Shown here one piece after another: positions 4,404 to 54,263 of a DNA stretch of 64,000 nucleotides (the stretch's first letter is position 1; each line of letters begins with the position of its first letter). Source of the DNA: Prevotella sp. Lineage in GTDB: Bacteria; Bacteroidota; Bacteroidia; Bacteroidales; Bacteroidaceae. The stretch is taken from the NCBI GenBank assembly GCA_017557405.1, contig JAFYYV010000048.1, forward strand, positions 1 to 64,000. The letters run 5' to 3'. The translations under genes were made by a program, and so were the position numbers. Under the pieces are notes generated by a model, which saw only the letters and a program-made list of their open reading frames with translations, ran no database searches and was not told the origin of the DNA.

Positions 4404-4745
4404 GTGAACGATCGTTCACCCCAAGATGAAGGCACCGTCGCGATTCGCGACACTGCCTATGAAACTCGAGCAATCTTCATCAACGAGAGTGGACTTGTAG
4501 TAAAAAACCTGCGCCCTGATCAGGGCGCAGGTTCTAACTTCAAGACAAGCTAACGTCGTGATTCACGACGTTAGGTTAGGACAAGGGCACTGCACCGATT
4601 CGGTGCACTGCTTCTAACTTCAAGACAGGGGCACCGTCGTGATTCACGACACTGCCTATGAAACTCGAGCAATCGTCATCAACGAGAGTGGACTTGTAGT
4701 AAAAAGCACTGCACCGATTCAGTGCACTGCTTCTAACTACAAGAC
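4404..4745. repeat. Cluster of short palindromes with shared tails
   Basis: This gap holds at least seven palindromes: 4404-4419 (16 bp, perfect), 4431-4457, 4506-4533 (28 bp, perfect, centre TGATCA), 4550-4574 (11-bp stem, loop ATT), about 4587-4611, 4630-4656 and about 4706-4730. Three are followed by TTCTAACTTCAAGACA or a one-base variant. A unit of about 76 bp is duplicated at 4431-4506 and 4630-4705. Between these copies the stem changes from GTCGCG/CGCGAC to GTCGTG/CACGAC, a paired change that keeps the hairpin. It looks like a REP-type element cluster. Confidence 0.75.
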
Positions 4746-4786
4746 AAACTTGGGCGCTTCAGGATGCCCTCGGGTACGGAGCACAC

Positions 4787-4907: not shown

Positions 4908-4931
4908 ATGTTCAATGTTCAATCTTCAATG
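4908..4931. repeat. TTCAATG heptamer repeat running into the anSME gene end
   Basis: TTCAATG is repeated with variants; the run crosses the stop codon of the anSME gene, so the last residues of that protein (SLKIEH) are encoded by the repeat. The same word series, AATCTTCAATGTTCAATG, occurs before rnhB at 27045-27083. Confidence 0.65.
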
Positions 4932-6288
4932 AATCTACTGCTTTCATGACGTTGGCAGGGGGACGTTGCTCGGATAGTTCGCGGGCCATGAAGTCCATGT
5001 AGGGGGCGGCGTGATGGTAGAACTGGCGATAGCCTTCGCAGAGGTAGTTGAGGCCGGGGTTGCCGTAGCAGTCGTTGACGATTCGGTTTTTGGGGCATTC
5101 GCCATGGCAGGCGAACTCGACATCGCACTCTCGGCACTGGCGGGGCAGGGCCTGATGCTTGAGAAGACTGAAACGCTGCTGCTGTGGGCCATAGAGCATC
5201 TCCACGAGGGTCTTTTCGCGGATGTTGCCCAGATGGTGCTCGGGCCGCACAAAGTGGTCGCAGGAATACACATCGCCGTTGGCCTCCATCACTCCGGCGT
5301 GGCCGCACTCCTTGGAGTAGGCGCAGATGCCAGGGGTCTCTCCGACCCAATTGGCGAGCGTACAATCGAAGATTTCGACGAAGATGTGTCCTACATCGGT
5401 TCGCACCCATTCGTCGAATATGGCGCAAAGGAAATGGCCCCATTGCTGGGGAGTGATGGATGCGGGATGGAGAGCCCCCGTAGCCGAGGGGCTTAGGGAT
5501 GAAGGATGAAGGATGAGGGATGAAGGATTATTTGCTTGAGGGGATGAGGCCCCCGTAGCCGAGGGGATAGTGGATGAAGGATGAAGAGCCTCCCTCTTAT
5601 CCATTCCCGAGTAAGACTCGCCTACCCGTAGCCTTTCCCAGTAGGGGGAAGATAGTTCTACGATGGGTGTGAATTGCAGGTAGGTGCATTGGTTTTCTTT
5701 GAAGAAATGGTAGAAGTCGAGGGGGTGGTCGACATTGGCGTGGTTGACGGTGGCCATGGCATTCCATTCCACCCCGTGCTTGCGCAGCAGTTGGATGGCA
5801 CGGACGACACGCTCCCAGGTGGGTTGGCCGCTGTTGGAAAGGCGGTATTGGTCGTGGAAGGGCTGGGGGCCATCGATGGAGAGTCCTACGAGGAAATGGT
5901 TTTCGGCAAGAAACTCGCACCACTCGTCGTTGAGCAGCGTGCCGTTGGTTTGCAGGCAGTTGCTGATTTGCCGCCCTTGAGCGTAGCGTTTCTGCAGTTG
6001 GATGGCTTTTCTGTAGAAGTCCAAGGGGCGCAAGGTGGGTTCTCCGCCATGCCAGGTGAAGAGCACTTGGGGCATGGTTTGCGCTTCGATGTATTCTTTG
6101 GTGAATTGCTCGAGGAGTGACTCGGACATGAGGGAGAAGCCCCCCTCAATCCCCCCAACTGGGGGGAAGTTGTGATGGTGGTTGGCGGTAGGCAGATAGT
6201 AGCAGTATTGGCAGCGCAGATTGCACCTCGGCCCCACGGGCTTGAGCATCACGTAGAGAGGACGGGCAAAGGGCGAATAGGTTTTCAT
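4912..6288 (-). CDS. Anaerobic sulfatase-maturating enzyme (radical SAM)
   Basis: This 458-residue radical SAM enzyme oxidises an active-site Ser or Cys of sulfatases to formylglycine without oxygen. The SAM cluster motif C-x3-C-x2-C is C22, C26 and C29 (CNLRCQYC). The C-terminal half holds a cysteine-rich SPASM-type region, including CAYSKECGHAGVMEANGDVY and CRECDVEFACHGECP, which binds auxiliary clusters. Two stretches look foreign: about seven extra residues (PPVGGIEGG region) near residue 42, encoded by a GC-rich palindrome, and about 40 Ser/Pro/Ala-rich residues near 235-275, encoded by a duplicated 75-bp repeat. Both keep the frame and lie between conserved blocks. A plausible substrate is the S-type sulfatase at 45273-46835. 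The name atsB or chuR would be used for relatives. Confidence 0.9.
   Translation of the reverse strand: MKTYSPFARPLYVMLKPVGPRCNLRCQYCYYLPTANHHHNFPPVGGIEGGFSLMSESLLEQFTKEYIEAQTMPQVLFTWHGGEPTLRPLDFYRKAIQLQKRYAQGRQISNCLQTNGTLLNDEWCEFLAENHFLVGLSIDGPQPFHDQYRLSNSGQPTWERVVRAIQLLRKHGVEWNAMATVNHANVDHPLDFYHFFKENQCTYLQFTPIVELSSPYWERLRVGESYSGMDKREALHPSSTIPSATGASSPQANNPSSLILHPSSLSPSATGALHPASITPQQWGHFLCAIFDEWVRTDVGHIFVEIFDCTLANWVGETPGICAYSKECGHAGVMEANGDVYSCDHFVRPEHHLGNIREKTLVEMLYGPQQQRFSLLKHQALPRQCRECDVEFACHGECPKNRIVNDCYGNPGLNYLCEGYRQFYHHAAPYMDFMARELSEQRPPANVMKAVDSLKIEH
5467..5590 (-). repeat. In-frame double repeat inside anSME
   Basis: The 18-bp word GCCCCCGTAGCCGAGGGG occurs twice, at 5474-5491 and 5549-5566, exactly 75 bp (25 codons) apart. 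Each copy is flanked by GGATGAAGGATGAAGG-type runs. The encoded peptide is low-complexity (SATGA in both units) and sits just before the conserved ITPQQWGHF block. The frame is open throughout. Confidence 0.75.
6133..6170 (-). repeat. GC-rich stem-loop element inside anSME
   Basis: CCCCCC-AACT-GGGGGG at 6151-6166 forms a 6-bp stem with a 4-base loop, next to a second C-rich arm (GCCCCCCTC). Read on the minus strand, the order stem-loop, short spacer, G-rich arm, CTTCTC matches the elements in sufD and rnhB. It encodes a Pro/Gly-rich insertion in the anSME protein. Confidence 0.65.
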
Positions 6289-6303: not shown

Positions 6304-6343
6304 AAATCCCCATTCCCCTGCTGTGAGGGGGATGGGGGTGTGG
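6304..6343 (-). terminator. Palindromic element acting as terminator of the barrel gene
   Basis: An imperfect 11-bp stem (CCCCATTCCCC pairing with GGGGGATGGGG) lies just after the stop of the minus-strand barrel gene and is followed on that strand by ATTTTTCT. It works as an intrinsic terminator on paper. Its G/C-run composition also makes it a member of the stem-loop family found inside genes here. Confidence 0.6.
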
Positions 6344-16564: not shown

Positions 16565-16762
16565 ACATTTTGTCAGCGAAAGGGGCAATTATTTGACAAA
16601 ATGTAAAGCGAAAGGCGAAATTAAATAACTGATTTGTTGAGGATTTTTACTTATTGCCTTTGTTTATCAAAGCTATGCTTTTGGTCGATGAAAGCTATGC
16701 TTTGAGCGTGCAAGAGCTATGCTTTGACTCGATGAAAGACCAACTTACATTTTGTCAAAACA
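16565..16762. repeat. 22-bp-period repeat array, copy A, with flanking inverted repeat
   Basis: AGCTATGCTTT units start at 16671, 16693 and 16715, a period of exactly 22 bp. Upstream lies an 11-bp inverted repeat ACATTTTGTCA (16565-16575 and complement at 16594-16604); downstream is TTACATTTTGTCAAA at about 16745. The segment TTTGTTGAGGATTTTTACTTAT just before the array recurs, with one change, before copy C at 53.9 kb. No gene is seen in 16340-16865. Confidence 0.8.
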
Positions 16763-24142: not shown

Positions 24143-25576
24143 ATGAGTAGCGAACAGCAATACATAGAACTCTACGAACAATGTCGTGACCTGATTTGCG
24201 CACATTCCGCCGACGTCATGAACGCCGTGCGCGATGCCGCATTCGAGGACTTCAAACGGCAGGGATTCCCCACGCGGAAGGTGGAGCGCTACAAATACAC
24301 CGACATTCAAAAACTCTTCGAGCCCGACTACGGATTGAATCTGAATCGGTTGGAGATACCTGTCGACCCCTACGAGGCTTTCCGTTGCGATGTGCCCAAC
24401 CTCAGCACCTCGCTCTATTTCGTGGTCAACGATGCGTTCTATAACAGAGGTAAGGAGCAAGAAATAAGAAAGGCTACGGGGAGGCGCGATAGCGGGAATG
24501 GTGAGAGAATACCCCAAGGTCATCTGCCCGAGGGCGTTATTGTAGGCTCACTTAGAGAACATCTCTCTTACCCCTCTCCACTTACCTCTTACCTCTCGCA
24601 TTATTACTCGAAGCTCGCCAAGACTTCCGATGATGCCGTTACGGCACTCAATACGATGCTGGCGCAAGACGGTTTGTTGGTATATGTCCCCAAGAACGTT
24701 CAGGTCGACCGTGCCATTCAGATCATCAACATCCTAAAGGCTCCCTCCCTAAACAGGGAGGGCAGGGGAGGGTCTCTCATGGTCAACCGCCGCGTGCTCA
24801 TCATCGTTGAGGAAGGTGCCTCCGTGCGCCTGCTCTTCTGCGACCATGCAGCCGACGACCATCCTTTCCTCGCCACGCAGGTCATCGAGGCTTACGTGGG
24901 TGAGAATGCTTCGCTCGACCTTTATTGCCTCGAGGAGACCCATTACAAGAACGTCCGCGTGAGCAATGTCTATATCGACCAGCAACGCTCCAGCCGTGTC
25001 AACCACAATGTCATCACCCTCCACAACGGGGTGACCCGCAATCGCCTCGACCTCACGCTCAACGGCGAGGGTGCCGAGTGCTTCTGCAATGGCTGCGTGA
25101 TAGGCGACAAAGGCCAGCATGTGGACAACAACACGCTCATCGACCACCAAGCCTCCCATTGCACCAGCCGCGAGCTCTACAAGTATGTGATGGGCGACCA
25201 GTCGGTGGGTGCTTTTGCCGGACGTGTGCTCGTGCGGCACGGAGCCCAGAAAACCTCCTCCGAGGAGGTCAACCAGAACCTCTGCACCTCGCGCGAGGCA
25301 CGCATGTACACCCAGCCGATGCTCGAGATCTATGCCGACGACGTCAAATGCTCGCATGGCTCCACGGTGGGCCAGCTCAACGATGCGGCGCTCTTCTACA
25401 TGCAACAGCGTGGCATCTCCGAAAAGGAGGCCCGCCTGCTGCTCGAACTGGCCTTCATCAACGAGGTTGTCGACCAGATTCAGCTCATCCCCCTGCGCGA
25501 CCGCCTGCGCTATCTCGTAGAAAAACGCTTCCGTGGCGAACTCAACAAGTGTGAGGGTTGCAAGCTTTGCAAATGA
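24143..25576 (+). CDS. sufD: Fe-S cluster assembly protein SufD, with in-frame inserts
   Basis: SufD partners SufB and SufC in Fe-S cluster assembly. The 477-residue protein is longer than is common for Bacteroidetes SufD (about 450). Family blocks are present: PEGVIVGSL, DAVTALNTMLAQDGLLVYVPKNVQVD, NRRVLIIVEEGASV, FCNGCVIGDKGQHVDNNTLIDH, and the C-terminal DDVKCSHGSTVGQLNDAALFYMQQRGI. Three stretches look foreign: about 24 residues after NDAFY (24444-24515), a Pro/Ser/Tyr-rich stretch SYPSPLTSYLS (24567-24599), and APSLNREGRGG (24738-24773). All are encoded by intergenic-type repeats and keep the frame. The conserved core is intact, so the protein is likely functional. Confidence 0.95.
   Translation: MSSEQQYIELYEQCRDLICAHSADVMNAVRDAAFEDFKRQGFPTRKVERYKYTDIQKLFEPDYGLNLNRLEIPVDPYEAFRCDVPNLSTSLYFVVNDAFYNRGKEQEIRKATGRRDSGNGERIPQGHLPEGVIVGSLREHLSYPSPLTSYLSHYYSKLAKTSDDAVTALNTMLAQDGLLVYVPKNVQVDRAIQIINILKAPSLNREGRGGSLMVNRRVLIIVEEGASVRLLFCDHAADDHPFLATQVIEAYVGENASLDLYCLEETHYKNVRVSNVYIDQQRSSRVNHNVITLHNGVTRNRLDLTLNGEGAECFCNGCVIGDKGQHVDNNTLIDHQASHCTSRELYKYVMGDQSVGAFAGRVLVRHGAQKTSSEEVNQNLCTSREARMYTQPMLEIYADDVKCSHGSTVGQLNDAALFYMQQRGISEKEARLLLELAFINEVVDQIQLIPLRDRLRYLVEKRFRGELNKCEGCKLCK
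24444..24597. repeat. Inverted pair of polypyrimidine repeats inside sufD
   Basis: The segment 24561-24597 (ATCTCTCTTACCCCTCTCC followed by CTTACCTCTTACCTCTC) resembles the insert in sufS at 26601-26636. About 100 bp upstream, at 24446-24470, the complementary word AGAGGTAAGGAG appears, so the repeat occurs in both orientations around the conserved PEGVIVGSL codons. Confidence 0.65.
24741..24776 (+). repeat. GC-rich stem-loop element inside sufD
   Basis: CCCTCCCT at 24743-24750 pairs with AGGGAGGG at 24755-24762 around the loop AAAC, followed by GCAGGGGAGGGTCTC. The element in rnhB (27436-27466) has the same loop and the same tail. It encodes part of APSLNREGRGGSLM in SufD. Confidence 0.8.
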
Positions 25577-25615
25577 CTTGATGTATCTTTCCTTTTGATT
25601 TCATAGATTGAAACG

Positions 25616-26866
25616 ATGTACGATATAAATAAGATACGAGCCGATTTTCCAATATTGGGGCGCCAAGTCTATGGCCGTCCGTTGGTTTATCTCGACAACG
25701 CCGCCACCACGCAGAAGCCGCTCTGTGTGCTCGATGCCATGCGCGACGAATACCTGAACGTCAATGCCAATGTGCATCGCGGTGTGCACTACCTCTCGCA
25801 ACAGGCCACCGACCTGCACGAGGGAGCCCGCGAGCGTGTGCGGCAGTTCATCAACGCCCGCAAGACCGAGGAGATTGTCTTCGCCCGCGGCACCACTGAG
25901 GCGCTCAACCTGGTGGCCAGTTCGTTCTGTGAGTCACAAATGAACGAGGGCGACGAGGTGATTGTTTCCGAGATGGAGCACCACTCGAACATTGTTCCTT
26001 GGCAGTTGCAGGCGGAGAAGAAGGGGATTGTCCTGCGGGTGATCCCCATGAACGACGATTTCACCCTCGACCTCGAGGCTTTCAAGCGCTTGTTCAACGA
26101 GCGCACCCGACTGGTGAGTGTCACCCATGTGAGCAATGTGCTTGGCACCGTCAACCCCATTCGCGAGATGGTGCAGATGGCCCACGAACACGGTGTTCCT
26201 GTGATGGTCGATGGAGCCCAGAGCGCCCCCCATCAGCACATCGACGTGCAAGCCCTCGACTGCGATTTCTTCGCCCTCAGCGGTCATAAGATGTATGGAC
26301 CCACGGGCATCGGAGTGCTCTATGGCAAAGAGGAGTGGCTCGACCGTCTGCCACCTTATCAGGGTGGGGGAGAGATGATCGACCGCGTCACGTGGGAGCG
26401 CACCACCTTCGAGCGTCTGCCGTTCAAGTTCGAGGCTGGAACCCCCGATTACATCGCCACCCACGGCCTTGCCACCGCCATCGACTACATCGAATCACTC
26501 GGTTTCGAGGCCATTCAGGAGCACGAGCAACAACTCACTCGCTATTGCATCCAGCAACTCCAGACCATCCCCGACATACACCTCTATGGGCCTTCAGGTA
26601 ATCTCTCCCCTCTTACCTCTTACCCCTCACCTCTAAAGACAGACCCCGTCGTTTCCTTCAACGTGGGCGACATCCATCATCTCGACATCGGAACCCTGCT
26701 CGACCGCCTTGGCATCGCCGTTCGCACCGGCCACCATTGCGCCCAGCCCCTCATGACACGTCTCGGCGTTCAGGGCACTGTCCGCGCTTCGTTCGCCTTG
26801 TACAACACGAAAGAGGAGGTCGACACCCTCGTAGCAGGAATCCAGCGAGTGGCGCAGATGTTCTAA
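25616..26866 (+). CDS. sufS: Cysteine desulfurase SufS, with in-frame insert
   Basis: SufS is the pyridoxal-phosphate enzyme that takes sulfur from cysteine for Fe-S assembly. The PLP lysine is K225 in SGHKMYGPTGIG and the persulfide-forming cysteine is C375 in RTGHHCAQP. The 416-residue length is slightly above the usual 405. A Ser/Pro/Leu-rich stretch, GNLSPLTSYPSPLKTD, between HLYGP and VVSFNV is encoded by a CTTACCTCTTACC-type repeat (26601-26636) related to one in sufD. It lies in a surface region of the C-terminal domain, so activity is probably kept. The gene closes the suf operon. Confidence 0.95.
   Translation: MYDINKIRADFPILGRQVYGRPLVYLDNAATTQKPLCVLDAMRDEYLNVNANVHRGVHYLSQQATDLHEGARERVRQFINARKTEEIVFARGTTEALNLVASSFCESQMNEGDEVIVSEMEHHSNIVPWQLQAEKKGIVLRVIPMNDDFTLDLEAFKRLFNERTRLVSVTHVSNVLGTVNPIREMVQMAHEHGVPVMVDGAQSAPHQHIDVQALDCDFFALSGHKMYGPTGIGVLYGKEEWLDRLPPYQGGGEMIDRVTWERTTFERLPFKFEAGTPDYIATHGLATAIDYIESLGFEAIQEHEQQLTRYCIQQLQTIPDIHLYGPSGNLSPLTSYPSPLKTDPVVSFNVGDIHHLDIGTLLDRLGIAVRTGHHCAQPLMTRLGVQGTVRASFALYNTKEEVDTLVAGIQRVAQMF
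26601..26636. repeat. Polypyrimidine repeat inside sufS
   Basis: The segment reads ATCTCTCCCC then TCTTACCTCTTACCCCTC, an in-frame minisatellite that resembles the sufD insert at 24561-24597. It lies between conserved codons for HLYGP and VVSFNV. Confidence 0.7.
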
Positions 26867-27013
26867 AGGGAAAGCCTCACCCCCGACCCCTCCCCAAGTA
26901 GGGAGGGGGGATTTGAAAACTTTAATAAATGGAGTAACTCCAAAGCCTCCCCTACGGGGTGAAAGGCTATGAGTAGTACGTCCCTTTAGACCCTACCACT
27001 CCTCTTTAAGCCC
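26867..27013. repeat. Two palindromic elements after sufS
   Basis: CCTCCC and GGGAGG at about 26888-26906 form a stem around CAAGTA; read on the minus strand this has the stem, spacer, G-rich arm and GAGGCTTT order of the elements inside genes. A second palindrome, CCCCTACGGGG, lies near 26948. They may terminate the suf transcript, but no clear T-run follows. No gene is seen here. Confidence 0.6.
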
Positions 27014-27044
27014 TTGAAGTGGAGCTTGCGAAAACTTCATCTTA

Positions 27045-27083
27045 ATCTTCAATGTTCAATGTTCAATAATCAATGTTCAATGT
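27045..27083. repeat. TTCAATG heptamer repeat running into rnhB start
   Basis: TTCAATG recurs with variants up to the rnhB start; the rnhB ATG (27080) is itself part of the last unit. The same word series occurs at the end of the anSME gene (4908-4931). Confidence 0.7.
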
Positions 27084-27727
27084 TGAAACGTCATTTCTAC
27101 GAAAATAAGGTTGAGGCCGGCTGCGACGAGGCAGGCCGTGGTTGTTTGGCAGGAAGTGTCTATGCTGCCGCTGTCATCCTGCCCCCCGACTACGACAATC
27201 CTGCCCTCAACGACTCCAAGCAGCTCACCGCCAAGCAGCGCGACGAACTGCGCCAGCAGATTGAGCACGATGCCCTCGCCTGGGCAGTGGGCATTGTCAC
27301 CCCCGAGGAGATCGACCGCATCAACATCCTCCGCGCCTCCTTCCTCGCCATGCATCGCGCCCTCGACCAACTCATCCTTCGACCCGAAGCCATCATCGTC
27401 GATGGCAACCGCTTCCAACCATACATCCCACAACTCCCCCCTAAACAGGGGGGCAGGGAGGGTCTTGCTCTCCCCCACACCTGCATCGTGAAGGGCGACT
27501 CCAAATACCAATCCATCGCTGCCGCCAGCATCCTCGCCAAGACCCATCGCGACGAGTATATGCTTCAGTTGGCAGAGCAATATCTCCAATACGACTGGCA
27601 GCACAACATGGGGTATCCCACCCGCAAGCATCGCGAAGCCATCCGCCAATACGGCGTCACGCCCTTCCACCGCCTCTCCTACAACCTCTTGGGCAACGAA
27701 GAGCTCTCCCTCCAGTTTGAGGACTAG
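27080..27727 (+). CDS. rnhB: Ribonuclease HII, with in-frame insert
   Basis: RNase HII cuts RNA in RNA-DNA hybrids and removes single ribonucleotides from DNA. Motifs present are [14 protein letters not shown] (catalytic DE), [22 protein letters not shown] and [24 protein letters not shown], with the C-terminal [23 protein letters not shown]. The start at 27080 gives [14 protein letters not shown], the usual beginning; longer readings translate a heptamer repeat. Length is 215 residues. Between YIPQ and CIVKGD a stretch of about 15 residues ([15 protein letters not shown]) is encoded by a GC-rich stem-loop element; other RNase HII proteins have only a few residues there. Confidence 0.95.
27436..27466 (+). 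repeat. GC-rich stem-loop element inside rnhB
   Basis: CCCCCCT (27436-27442) pairs with AGGGGGG (27447-27453) around the loop AAAC, followed by CAGGGAGGGTCT. Loop and tail match the element inside sufD (24741-24776). Confidence 0.8.
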
Positions 27728-27906: not shown

Positions 27907-28039
27907 TGATAAAATCTAAGTATTTTTATTTACAAAAAACAGTCGACTTTTCCGTTCAATCTAGAAAAGAAAAACGCATGAGAAAACGACTTTTCTGCTC
28001 CAATTTCCTCATTTTCCACACATGAAATTGTCACATGTG

Positions 28040-28165
28040 GCATCTGAGGCGCTCATAGTTATGCTTTGACCCGCTTACATGTGGCATCTGACGCCCTCAA
28101 AGCATAGCTATGACAAGCTCATTCCATAGCTATGACCACCTCATTGCATAGCTTTGACAGGTTAA
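28040..28165. repeat. 22-bp-period repeat array, copy B
   Basis: CATAGCT units start at 28103, 28125 and 28147, exactly 22 bp apart, and a related AGTTATGCTTTGA lies at 28058. Here the array is accompanied by a direct repeat ACATGTGGCATCTGA at about 28033 and 28077. It belongs with copies A (16.7 kb) and C (54.0 kb). Confidence 0.75.
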
Positions 28166-53868: not shown

Positions 53869-53959
53869 AGTACGAAACGACTTTTTTCAATTTGTCAGTA
53901 AAATCGACGAAATCGCGACACTATGCGAAGTTTTATTGGCATTTTAATAACCATTTTGT

Positions 53960-54080
53960 TGAGAATTTTTACTTATGGGCTGGTTTTGCCATAGCTATGC
54001 TTTGACCTTCTCAAAGCTATGCTTTAATCGACTCATAGCTATGCTTTGACAAGCTCAAAGCATAGCTTACATTTTGTCAA
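53960..54080. repeat. 22-bp-period repeat array, copy C
   Basis: AGCTATGCTTT units start at 53993, 54015 and 54037, exactly 22 bp apart; an inverted partial unit (AAGCATAGCT) follows at about 54058 and then TTACATTTTGTCAAA. The lead-in TTTGTTGAGAATTTTTACTTAT at about 53956 matches the one before copy A with one change. The rest of the gap up to the susC promoter shows no gene. Confidence 0.8.
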
Positions 54081-54263
54081 ATGCATGGTTTTGGTTTTTC
54101 GGAGTTATAGGAAAGCGTTTCAAGAGGCCTTTCGCGCGCGTACATTTATTAATATTATATGCCTCCAATACCGCGAAAGCCCCCATTTCATAGGGATTAT
54201 GCAGAATTTATCCTATTTTTTCGTTAAAAAGTGTTCAATAATCGTTCGTTTTTATAATTTTGC

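Follow-up and report, generated by a model that had tools for sequence, protein, structure and literature searches.

Palindromic elements in frame in sufD and rnhB of a Prevotella genome and their probable relationship to units with a DUF559 nuclease gene

The first 64,000 nucleotides of contig JAFYYV010000048.1 of Prevotella sp. (assembly GCA_017557405.1; the whole of this stretch is called the window below, and the genome that contains it the source genome) include sufD and rnhB, two unrelated genes that carry the same small palindromic element in frame. How could one element have come to lie in both, and where would its copies come from? One of the five genes for DUF559 (PF04480) nucleases in the source genome is bracketed by palindromes of this very subtype: unit L250 (C16:362371) has the ends CTCCCCCTAAACAGGGGGAG..GGGTCT and CTCCCTAAACAGGGAG..GGGTCT. 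Palindromes bracket DUF559 genes, and this unit ends in the subtype seen in sufD and rnhB; the best reading of the elements is as loose unit ends, and we put the probability that they derive by copying from the ends of a small mobile unit with a DUF559 nuclease gene at roughly 0.7. The features concerned are:

24143..25576, + strand: sufD, host gene, with SufBD_N and SUFBD_core
24741..24776, + strand: palindromic element of subtype c (CTAAACAG loop, GGGTCT tail), in frame in sufD
27080..27727, + strand: rnhB, host gene, with RNase_HII
27434..27466, + strand: palindromic element of subtype c, in frame in rnhB

Both elements exhibit a core layout of a pyrimidine arm, a loop, a purine arm, two bases and a G-rich tail with a final GGGTCT. 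Positions 24743-24762 of sufD read CCCTCCCTAAACAGGGAGGG, followed by CAGGGGAGGGTCT, and positions 27436-27453 of rnhB read CCCCCCTAAACAGGGGGG, followed by CAGGGAGGGTCT; the sufD element is translated into KAPSLNREGRGGS and the rnhB element into a 13-residue stretch. A strict scan for a hairpin plus tail reported three places in the window (in sufD, rnhB and an anSME-like gene) vs none in 10 first-order Markov sequences. The right arm and tail of the sufD element (20 bases, up to 3 mismatches) had no second match in the window and none in 100 shuffles. A preliminary description of this DNA had claimed that sufD and rnhB hold one palindromic element in frame, which is borne out by the hairpin scan, the reading frames and the common subtype c. 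A pattern made for this subtype found 25 copies in the source genome and none in controls, with both ends of L250 and the elements of sufD and rnhB among the copies. The view that one repeat family lies in frame in unrelated genes is supported, and a likely source can be added to it, namely a DUF559 unit with ends of the same subtype. Eight of the 25 copies share a single giant open frame on contig 24 (L137, more than 5500 codons), which is antisense to these eight elements; the next frame holds two more.

DUF559 nuclease genes and the palindromes at their ends

DUF559 is present in 37 of the 60 genomes of the genus, including the source genome; from 83 places matching PF04480, 14 fragments were dropped and 69 full-length copies kept. 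A profile of 36 copies matched an endonuclease-like protein (PDB 3hrl, E-value 1.5e-32) and a "mobile intron protein" (PDB 3r3p, E-value 6.3e-8), and the residues D, E-x-DG and H are conserved. The latter structure is presumably that of I-Bth0305I, of the EDxHD homing family. By sequence, DUF559 is a relative of a homing-family nuclease, with a fold predicted from these matches to solved structures. In the available excerpt of PMC9403480 a DUF559 gene is assigned to the EDxHD family, with citation of the I-Bth0305I paper.

Elements found within 700 bp of DUF559 are strongly polarized: on the left, 45 lie on the minus strand vs 6 on the plus strand, and on the right 44 on the plus vs 7 on the minus strand. 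Left elements thus point to the left (45/51) and right ones to the right (44/51), i.e. the tails face outward (the count is strand-symmetric, and the sides are left and right, not upstream and downstream). Under a strict G-rich rule, the nearest pair is of the minus/plus type at 32 of 69 DUF559 loci vs none of 19 RAYT-like, 30 RnhB and 30 SufD loci. Under a looser hairpin rule, hairpins occur on both sides of 54/68 DUF559 loci of the genus vs 7/65 windows displaced by 700 bp (other genes of the genus: RAYT-like, 5/20; SufD, 1/30; RnhB, 2/30), and of 65/77 loci from named Bacteroidota vs 4/74 displaced windows. Flanks were long enough at 68 of 69 genus loci and 77 of 80 named loci, the latter being the best 80 of at least 517 confirmed loci; the scan for their collection was run with alignment A4, alignment A3 having no sufficiently conserved stretch. 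Altogether, the existence of DUF559 units bracketed by palindromes is well supported.

The layout of a hairpin with a one-sided tail is also that of repetitive extragenic palindromes (REPs), and the source genome encodes one RAYT-like protein of 351 residues (L067:1360-2415, G000 contig 16), which has a DHLHG motif and matches Y1_Tnp weakly; RAYT-like matches occur in 35 of the 60 genomes, the source genome included. The elements could accordingly be REPs moved by this HUH tyrosine transposase, which we regard as unlikely: none of 19 RAYT-like genes has an element within 700 bp, RAYT is little associated with the element count (rho 0.26; phylogenetic contrasts: r 0.17, p 0.36), six genomes with 41-266 raw element matches (one of them 62% complete) have no RAYT-like match, and GTAG stands beside the 3' side of 0/74 and the 5' side of 1/74 elements of the source genome. 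With no flanking elements and little copy-number association, the RAYT-like gene is a weak candidate for the mobilizer.

The number of elements follows the number of DUF559 genes across the 60 genomes (rho 0.78; four genomes with fragments alone were set to zero DUF559, and fragments elsewhere were still counted), and in the 30 genomes with a fetched SufD phylogenetic contrasts gave r 0.68 (p 3.6e-5); element counts in both correlations are raw matches, nested ones included. Full DUF559 occurs in 17/17 genomes with at least 40 element matches vs 16/43 others.

The two ends of one unit resemble each other more than the ends of different units do (median similarity in the genus 51 vs 22, with 44/68 units above the 95% point), and end similarity tracks nuclease identity (Spearman 0.50, 1070 pairs from 48 units with matching ends, 0 of 2000 permutations; pairs from the same genome or with the same annotated target were left out). 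When the 74 elements of the source genome were each forced to a best match among the ends of its five units, with no score cut-off, they were divided 39, 15, 11, 8 and 1, so that solitary elements resembling the ends are numerous for four of the five units. These results bear on a different explanation, in which DUF559 is a homing nuclease that lands on palindromes already abundant, the solitary ones being spread by some other host process. It agrees with the occurrence of element-rich genomes without full DUF559, and homing enzymes require only a target; nonetheless, we find it rather improbable, as it has to face ends that match within a unit and co-vary with the nuclease clade, together with the solitary look-alikes of four units.

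Outside Bacteroidota, a tblastn search of plasmids with DUF559 returned 40 records, including Cyanobacteria, Proteobacteria and Deinococcus, from which 14 loci of other phyla were chosen for variety. Hairpins stand on both sides of 11 of the 14, a figure that has no control of its own. In Sphingomonas the DUF559 gene lies between sufB and sufC.

Several observations weigh against the derivation of the elements from DUF559 units. Association is no proof of cause: the nuclease may simply be carried along as cargo, or its mRNA may be regulated by the hairpins. No full DUF559 is found in 6 of the 34 genomes with at least 10 element matches, while 5 of the 26 genomes with fewer have one. One end of a unit is frequently degenerate, two related units (L226, L257) have the reversed polarity with tails inward, and the co-variation of nuclease and ends may partly reflect orthologous insertions whose targets are not named. 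In named Bacteroidota the end similarity has a median of 38 vs 21, and only 38/77 loci exceed the cross-locus 95% point; in our opinion the margin is smaller there because the ends of different units are alike. Among the loci of other phyla, the inverted match between the flanks exceeds the 95% point of cross-locus scores in 5/14 (two from Pseudanabaena, and those from Deinococcus, Sphingomonas and Azospirillum lipoferum), and only 2, both from Pseudanabaena, exceed the highest cross score. The wider generalization, for which we would give slightly better than even odds, is that a Vsr/EDxHD-type DUF559 nuclease with its own pair of palindromes constitutes an autonomous mobile element, widespread in Bacteroidota and with patchier evidence in Cyanobacteria, Proteobacteria and Deinococcota, which inserts in frame into coding loops, with no splicing involved, and has solitary palindromes and pairs lacking the nuclease as its non-autonomous forms.

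Copies across the genome and their reading frames

Two patterns were used for the source genome together with the hairpin scan; they replaced a covariance model, since loop and arm lengths differ among elements and alignments A1 and A2 were therefore not structure-consistent. The first pattern gave 76 raw matches vs 0 for its reversed control and the second 38 vs 4. After nested, repeated and overlapping opposite-strand matches had been merged, the two patterns left 74 distinct places, which is an under-count, as the subtype-c pattern brought further copies. These further copies in the genome speak in favour of a repeat family. The remaining features of this kind in the window are:

4912..6288, - strand: anSME-like radical SAM/SPASM gene, host
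6133..6170, - strand (sense strand of the gene): related palindromic element, in frame in the anSME-like gene
26876..26912, - strand: related palindromic element of subtype b, tail GGGGGTGAGGCT, in the sufS-rnhB spacer
6304..6343, strand not assigned: longer two-sided hairpin between two genes, family membership undecided

The copies in the anSME-like gene (peptide NFPPVGGIEGGF) and in the sufS-rnhB spacer have the layout of the sufD and rnhB elements, with different loops and tails. Of the three related copies originally proposed, these two can be retained on the grounds of their like layout, while the hairpin at 6304-6343 is left undecided. Several copies located in spacers are followed by T-runs.

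Forty-six of the 74 elements fall within an open frame that runs for 140 codons or more and extends 15 codons or more to either side of the element; 4 of the 46 share one giant frame and 6 are in frames of less than 200 codons. The 46 occur in three forward-sense and two reverse-sense phases. Of 1000 random places in the window, 845 comply with the same rule, so the count does not indicate enrichment in genes: elements are found there less often than by chance, and those that do lie in genes keep the frame open. In the source genome, 73/74 elements are open in at least 4 of the 6 frames. A Pfam scan of 39 element-bearing proteins gave a match for 29, in 17 of which the match spans the element or matches flank it (read from the tables by eye); these hosts include TsaE, MiaA (IPPT), MutS2, RecQ, a UPF0004/radical SAM protein, LacZ, MacB, an M16 peptidase, RNase HII and SufD. 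The deficit in open frames and the T-runs would fit hairpins that are mainly RNA elements (terminators or mRNA stabilizers) and lie in genes by accident, and REPs do act on RNA (PMC3733652, excerpt). We consider this explanation very improbable, since it does not account for the bracketing of DUF559 or for units in frame.

Insertion sites and whole units in host proteins

Alignments of relatives show few and variable residues at both insertion sites, as had been predicted. The RnhB site comprises 15 residues here, against a range of 2 to 16 among 25 relatives. The SufD site comprises 13 residues here; of 29 relatives, 16 have 5 residues, three have 9-10, nine have 13 and one has 31. The nine SufD relatives with 13 residues, mostly the nearest by SufD identity, have in common an unrelated stretch similar to KATPQNAQR. 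As to the proposed addition of 11-15 residues, RnhB is 15 residues longer at the site than PDB 3o3g, and in SufD the element adds 8 or 0 residues depending on the relative. As to the boundaries, the sequence of the element is absent from the site in all 29 SufD and all 25 RnhB relatives aligned, although the SufD site is not plainly empty in near kin; because nine relatives hold a different stretch of equal length, the SufD element may have replaced an earlier loop instead of filling an empty site. A view of the inserted residues as ancient and conserved in each protein could find an argument in the length of these nine loops, unrelated as their sequence is; it is extremely improbable, as the element occurs in no aligned SufD or RnhB relative and the alignments of LeuRS and LacZ also include sites without it. 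For the sequence itself, ancient conservation is refuted. In one relative (G051), the two remaining variable loops of SufD carry two other elements.

Whole units are found in proteins as well. In the source genome, Pfam identified DUF559 within an ABC-F ATPase (L080), with elements on both sides of the domain, and within a UDP-galactopyranose mutase (L164). Among 20 DUF559-bearing frames of the genus, LeuRS of G043 and a DegT aminotransferase of G001 contain the domain; it also occurs in helicase-type frames of G030 and G037, follows an epimerase and a GNAT domain, and precedes guanylate kinase, IspF, RNase H, an amino-acid kinase, a GAF domain and DprA. The copies in LeuRS, ABC-F, UDP-galactopyranose mutase and DegT are internal; a DUF559 gene ahead of another gene may be a separate unit with an open frame between the two. 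No intein family was among the Pfam matches of the host frames. DUF559 matches within LeuRS, ABC-F and UDP-galactopyranose mutase are probably passengers rather than functional domains of these proteins. A tree of 68 DUF559 copies groups the four ispF copies, five of the seven gmk copies and the two ABC-F copies, a grouping that lineages tied to a conserved target site and vertical descent would explain equally well. DUF559 and guanylate kinase share one open frame in seven genomes (L238, L240, L246, L247, L268, L269, L276; the frames L246, L269 and L276 were read by eye).

The LeuRS unit of G043 sits in frame between NSP and LNGLTVKEAI, with an inverted palindrome and extra direct copies on its left and a direct palindrome on its right, and it is absent from the 22 other aligned rows (21 genomes, the source genome included). 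The same loop of leuS in G023 (L386) contains an inverted palindrome pair without a nuclease, GGCCCCCC..CCCCCGAGGGGG..GCCCCCTCGGGGGC..GGGGGGGCC, which resembles the ends of the DUF559 unit L261 of that genome; the LeuRS loop of G004 holds an unrelated stretch. In LacZ of the source genome (L431), 30 residues separate WVDQGL and YGGDFGD vs seven in four relatives (L432, L435, L439, L440), and the DNA of the insert is an inverted palindrome pair with tails outward and no nuclease. Some of the other LacZ relatives have longer unrelated stretches at this site, and L442 is broken. In both L386 and L431 the tails face outward and the palindromes are ~10-20 bases apart. Such nuclease-less pairs could possibly represent a non-autonomous form. 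No target-site duplication was noticed by eye at SufD, RnhB, LeuRS or LacZ, where loop variation precludes an exact comparison.

We infer from these arrangements how such a unit might act and spread. Its order would be tail-hairpin, DUF559 nuclease gene, hairpin-tail, with the ends inverted and the tails outward, and each nuclease lineage would probably recognize its own palindrome subtype. The nuclease may nick or cut at the hairpin/tail, and the cutting could drive the copying of the whole unit in a homing-like manner, of single ends and of nuclease-less pairs. Insertions of suitable length in surface loops would keep the gene open and survive, owing to an element that is open in most reading frames, and other insertions in genes would be lost.

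Relation to known systems and other repeats

Palindromes in frame are known from the Rickettsia palindromic elements (RPEs) and from intragenic REPs (PMC3733652 and PMC10969869, excerpts). Like the elements described here, these are short palindromes of several families, found in frame in genes that have no relation to one another, either alone or in head-to-head dimers; the parallel with RPEs drawn at the outset is fair as a description. The tags differ, being CGTC or GTAG there, whereas the tails here end in GGCT or GGGTCT: CGTC, the tag of R. conorii RPEs (PMC3733652, excerpt), stands beside the 5' side of 1/74 and the 3' side of 0/74 elements, and CTAC, the complement of GTAG, beside 2/74 on either side, vs 71/74 elements of the source genome with GGCT, GGTCT or GGCC in the tail. 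According to the same excerpt, CGTC-type repeats, among which that paper counts the Rickettsia RPEs, have no dedicated transposase, whereas here the palindromes bracket a nuclease gene.

The REPtron is similar in that an enzyme gene lies between inverted palindromes with a one-sided tag and many solitary copies occur in addition, but its enzyme is a tyrosine transposase and not a Vsr-like nuclease, and its GTAG tag is missing here. Homing endonuclease genes of the EDxHD family (PDB 3r3p) share with DUF559 the sequence kinship and the location in conserved genes. They differ in that the insert here appears to stay in the protein frame with no intron or intein family seen around it, and in that the ends of the DUF559 unit are palindromes that also occur alone. 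The DUF559 domain itself is shared with VsrA of Caulobacter (PMC12907096, excerpt) and with segments of Legionella, where repeated transposase/DUF559 segments are recombination hotspots (PMC12308824, excerpt). In the excerpts of these two articles no word beginning with "palindrom" occurs, and in that of PMC8861277 "palindromic" appears only as part of CRISPR; DUF559/PF04480 is not tied to palindromic repeats in the excerpts of PMC12907096, PMC9403480, PMC8861277, PMC9454445, PMC12308824 and PMC8715426. The literature searched, which had most subscription journals outside its scope, contained no report of a link between DUF559 and palindromes or of in-frame palindromes in Prevotella or other Bacteroidetes. 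The likely novelty is thus the DUF559 nuclease as the probable source, in-frame palindromes as such being already known.

A nuclease flanked on both sides by palindromes of its own is a concrete candidate for the agent that spreads at least one broad repeat set, and the DUF559 unit, if the proposed derivation is true, becomes a candidate for the missing mobilizer of other orphan palindromic repeats. It would also represent a selfish nuclease residing within essential proteins, apparently unspliced, and would give rise to new loops and inserted domains in proteins.

Other repeats were noticed in the course of this work. Low-complexity repeats (TTACCTCTTACCTCT, GGATGAAGGATGAAG) of the spacer kind lie in frame in variable parts of sufD (24440-24600), sufS (26600-26640) and the anSME-like gene (5474-5586), and similar ones are seen in SufD and LacZ of some relatives. 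A second repeat family, similar to CATAGCTATGCTTTGA and with partly inverted copies, occupies spacers of the window at 28033-28113, 16621-16759 and 53943-54081. The stretch 4422-4746, past the 3' end of the anSME-like gene, consists of diverged repeats with palindromes (AACCTGCGCCCTGATCAGGGCGCAGGTT). Finally, in contig 1 of G016 (619320-619542) four palindromes of the same direction follow one another at an exact spacing of 66 bp.

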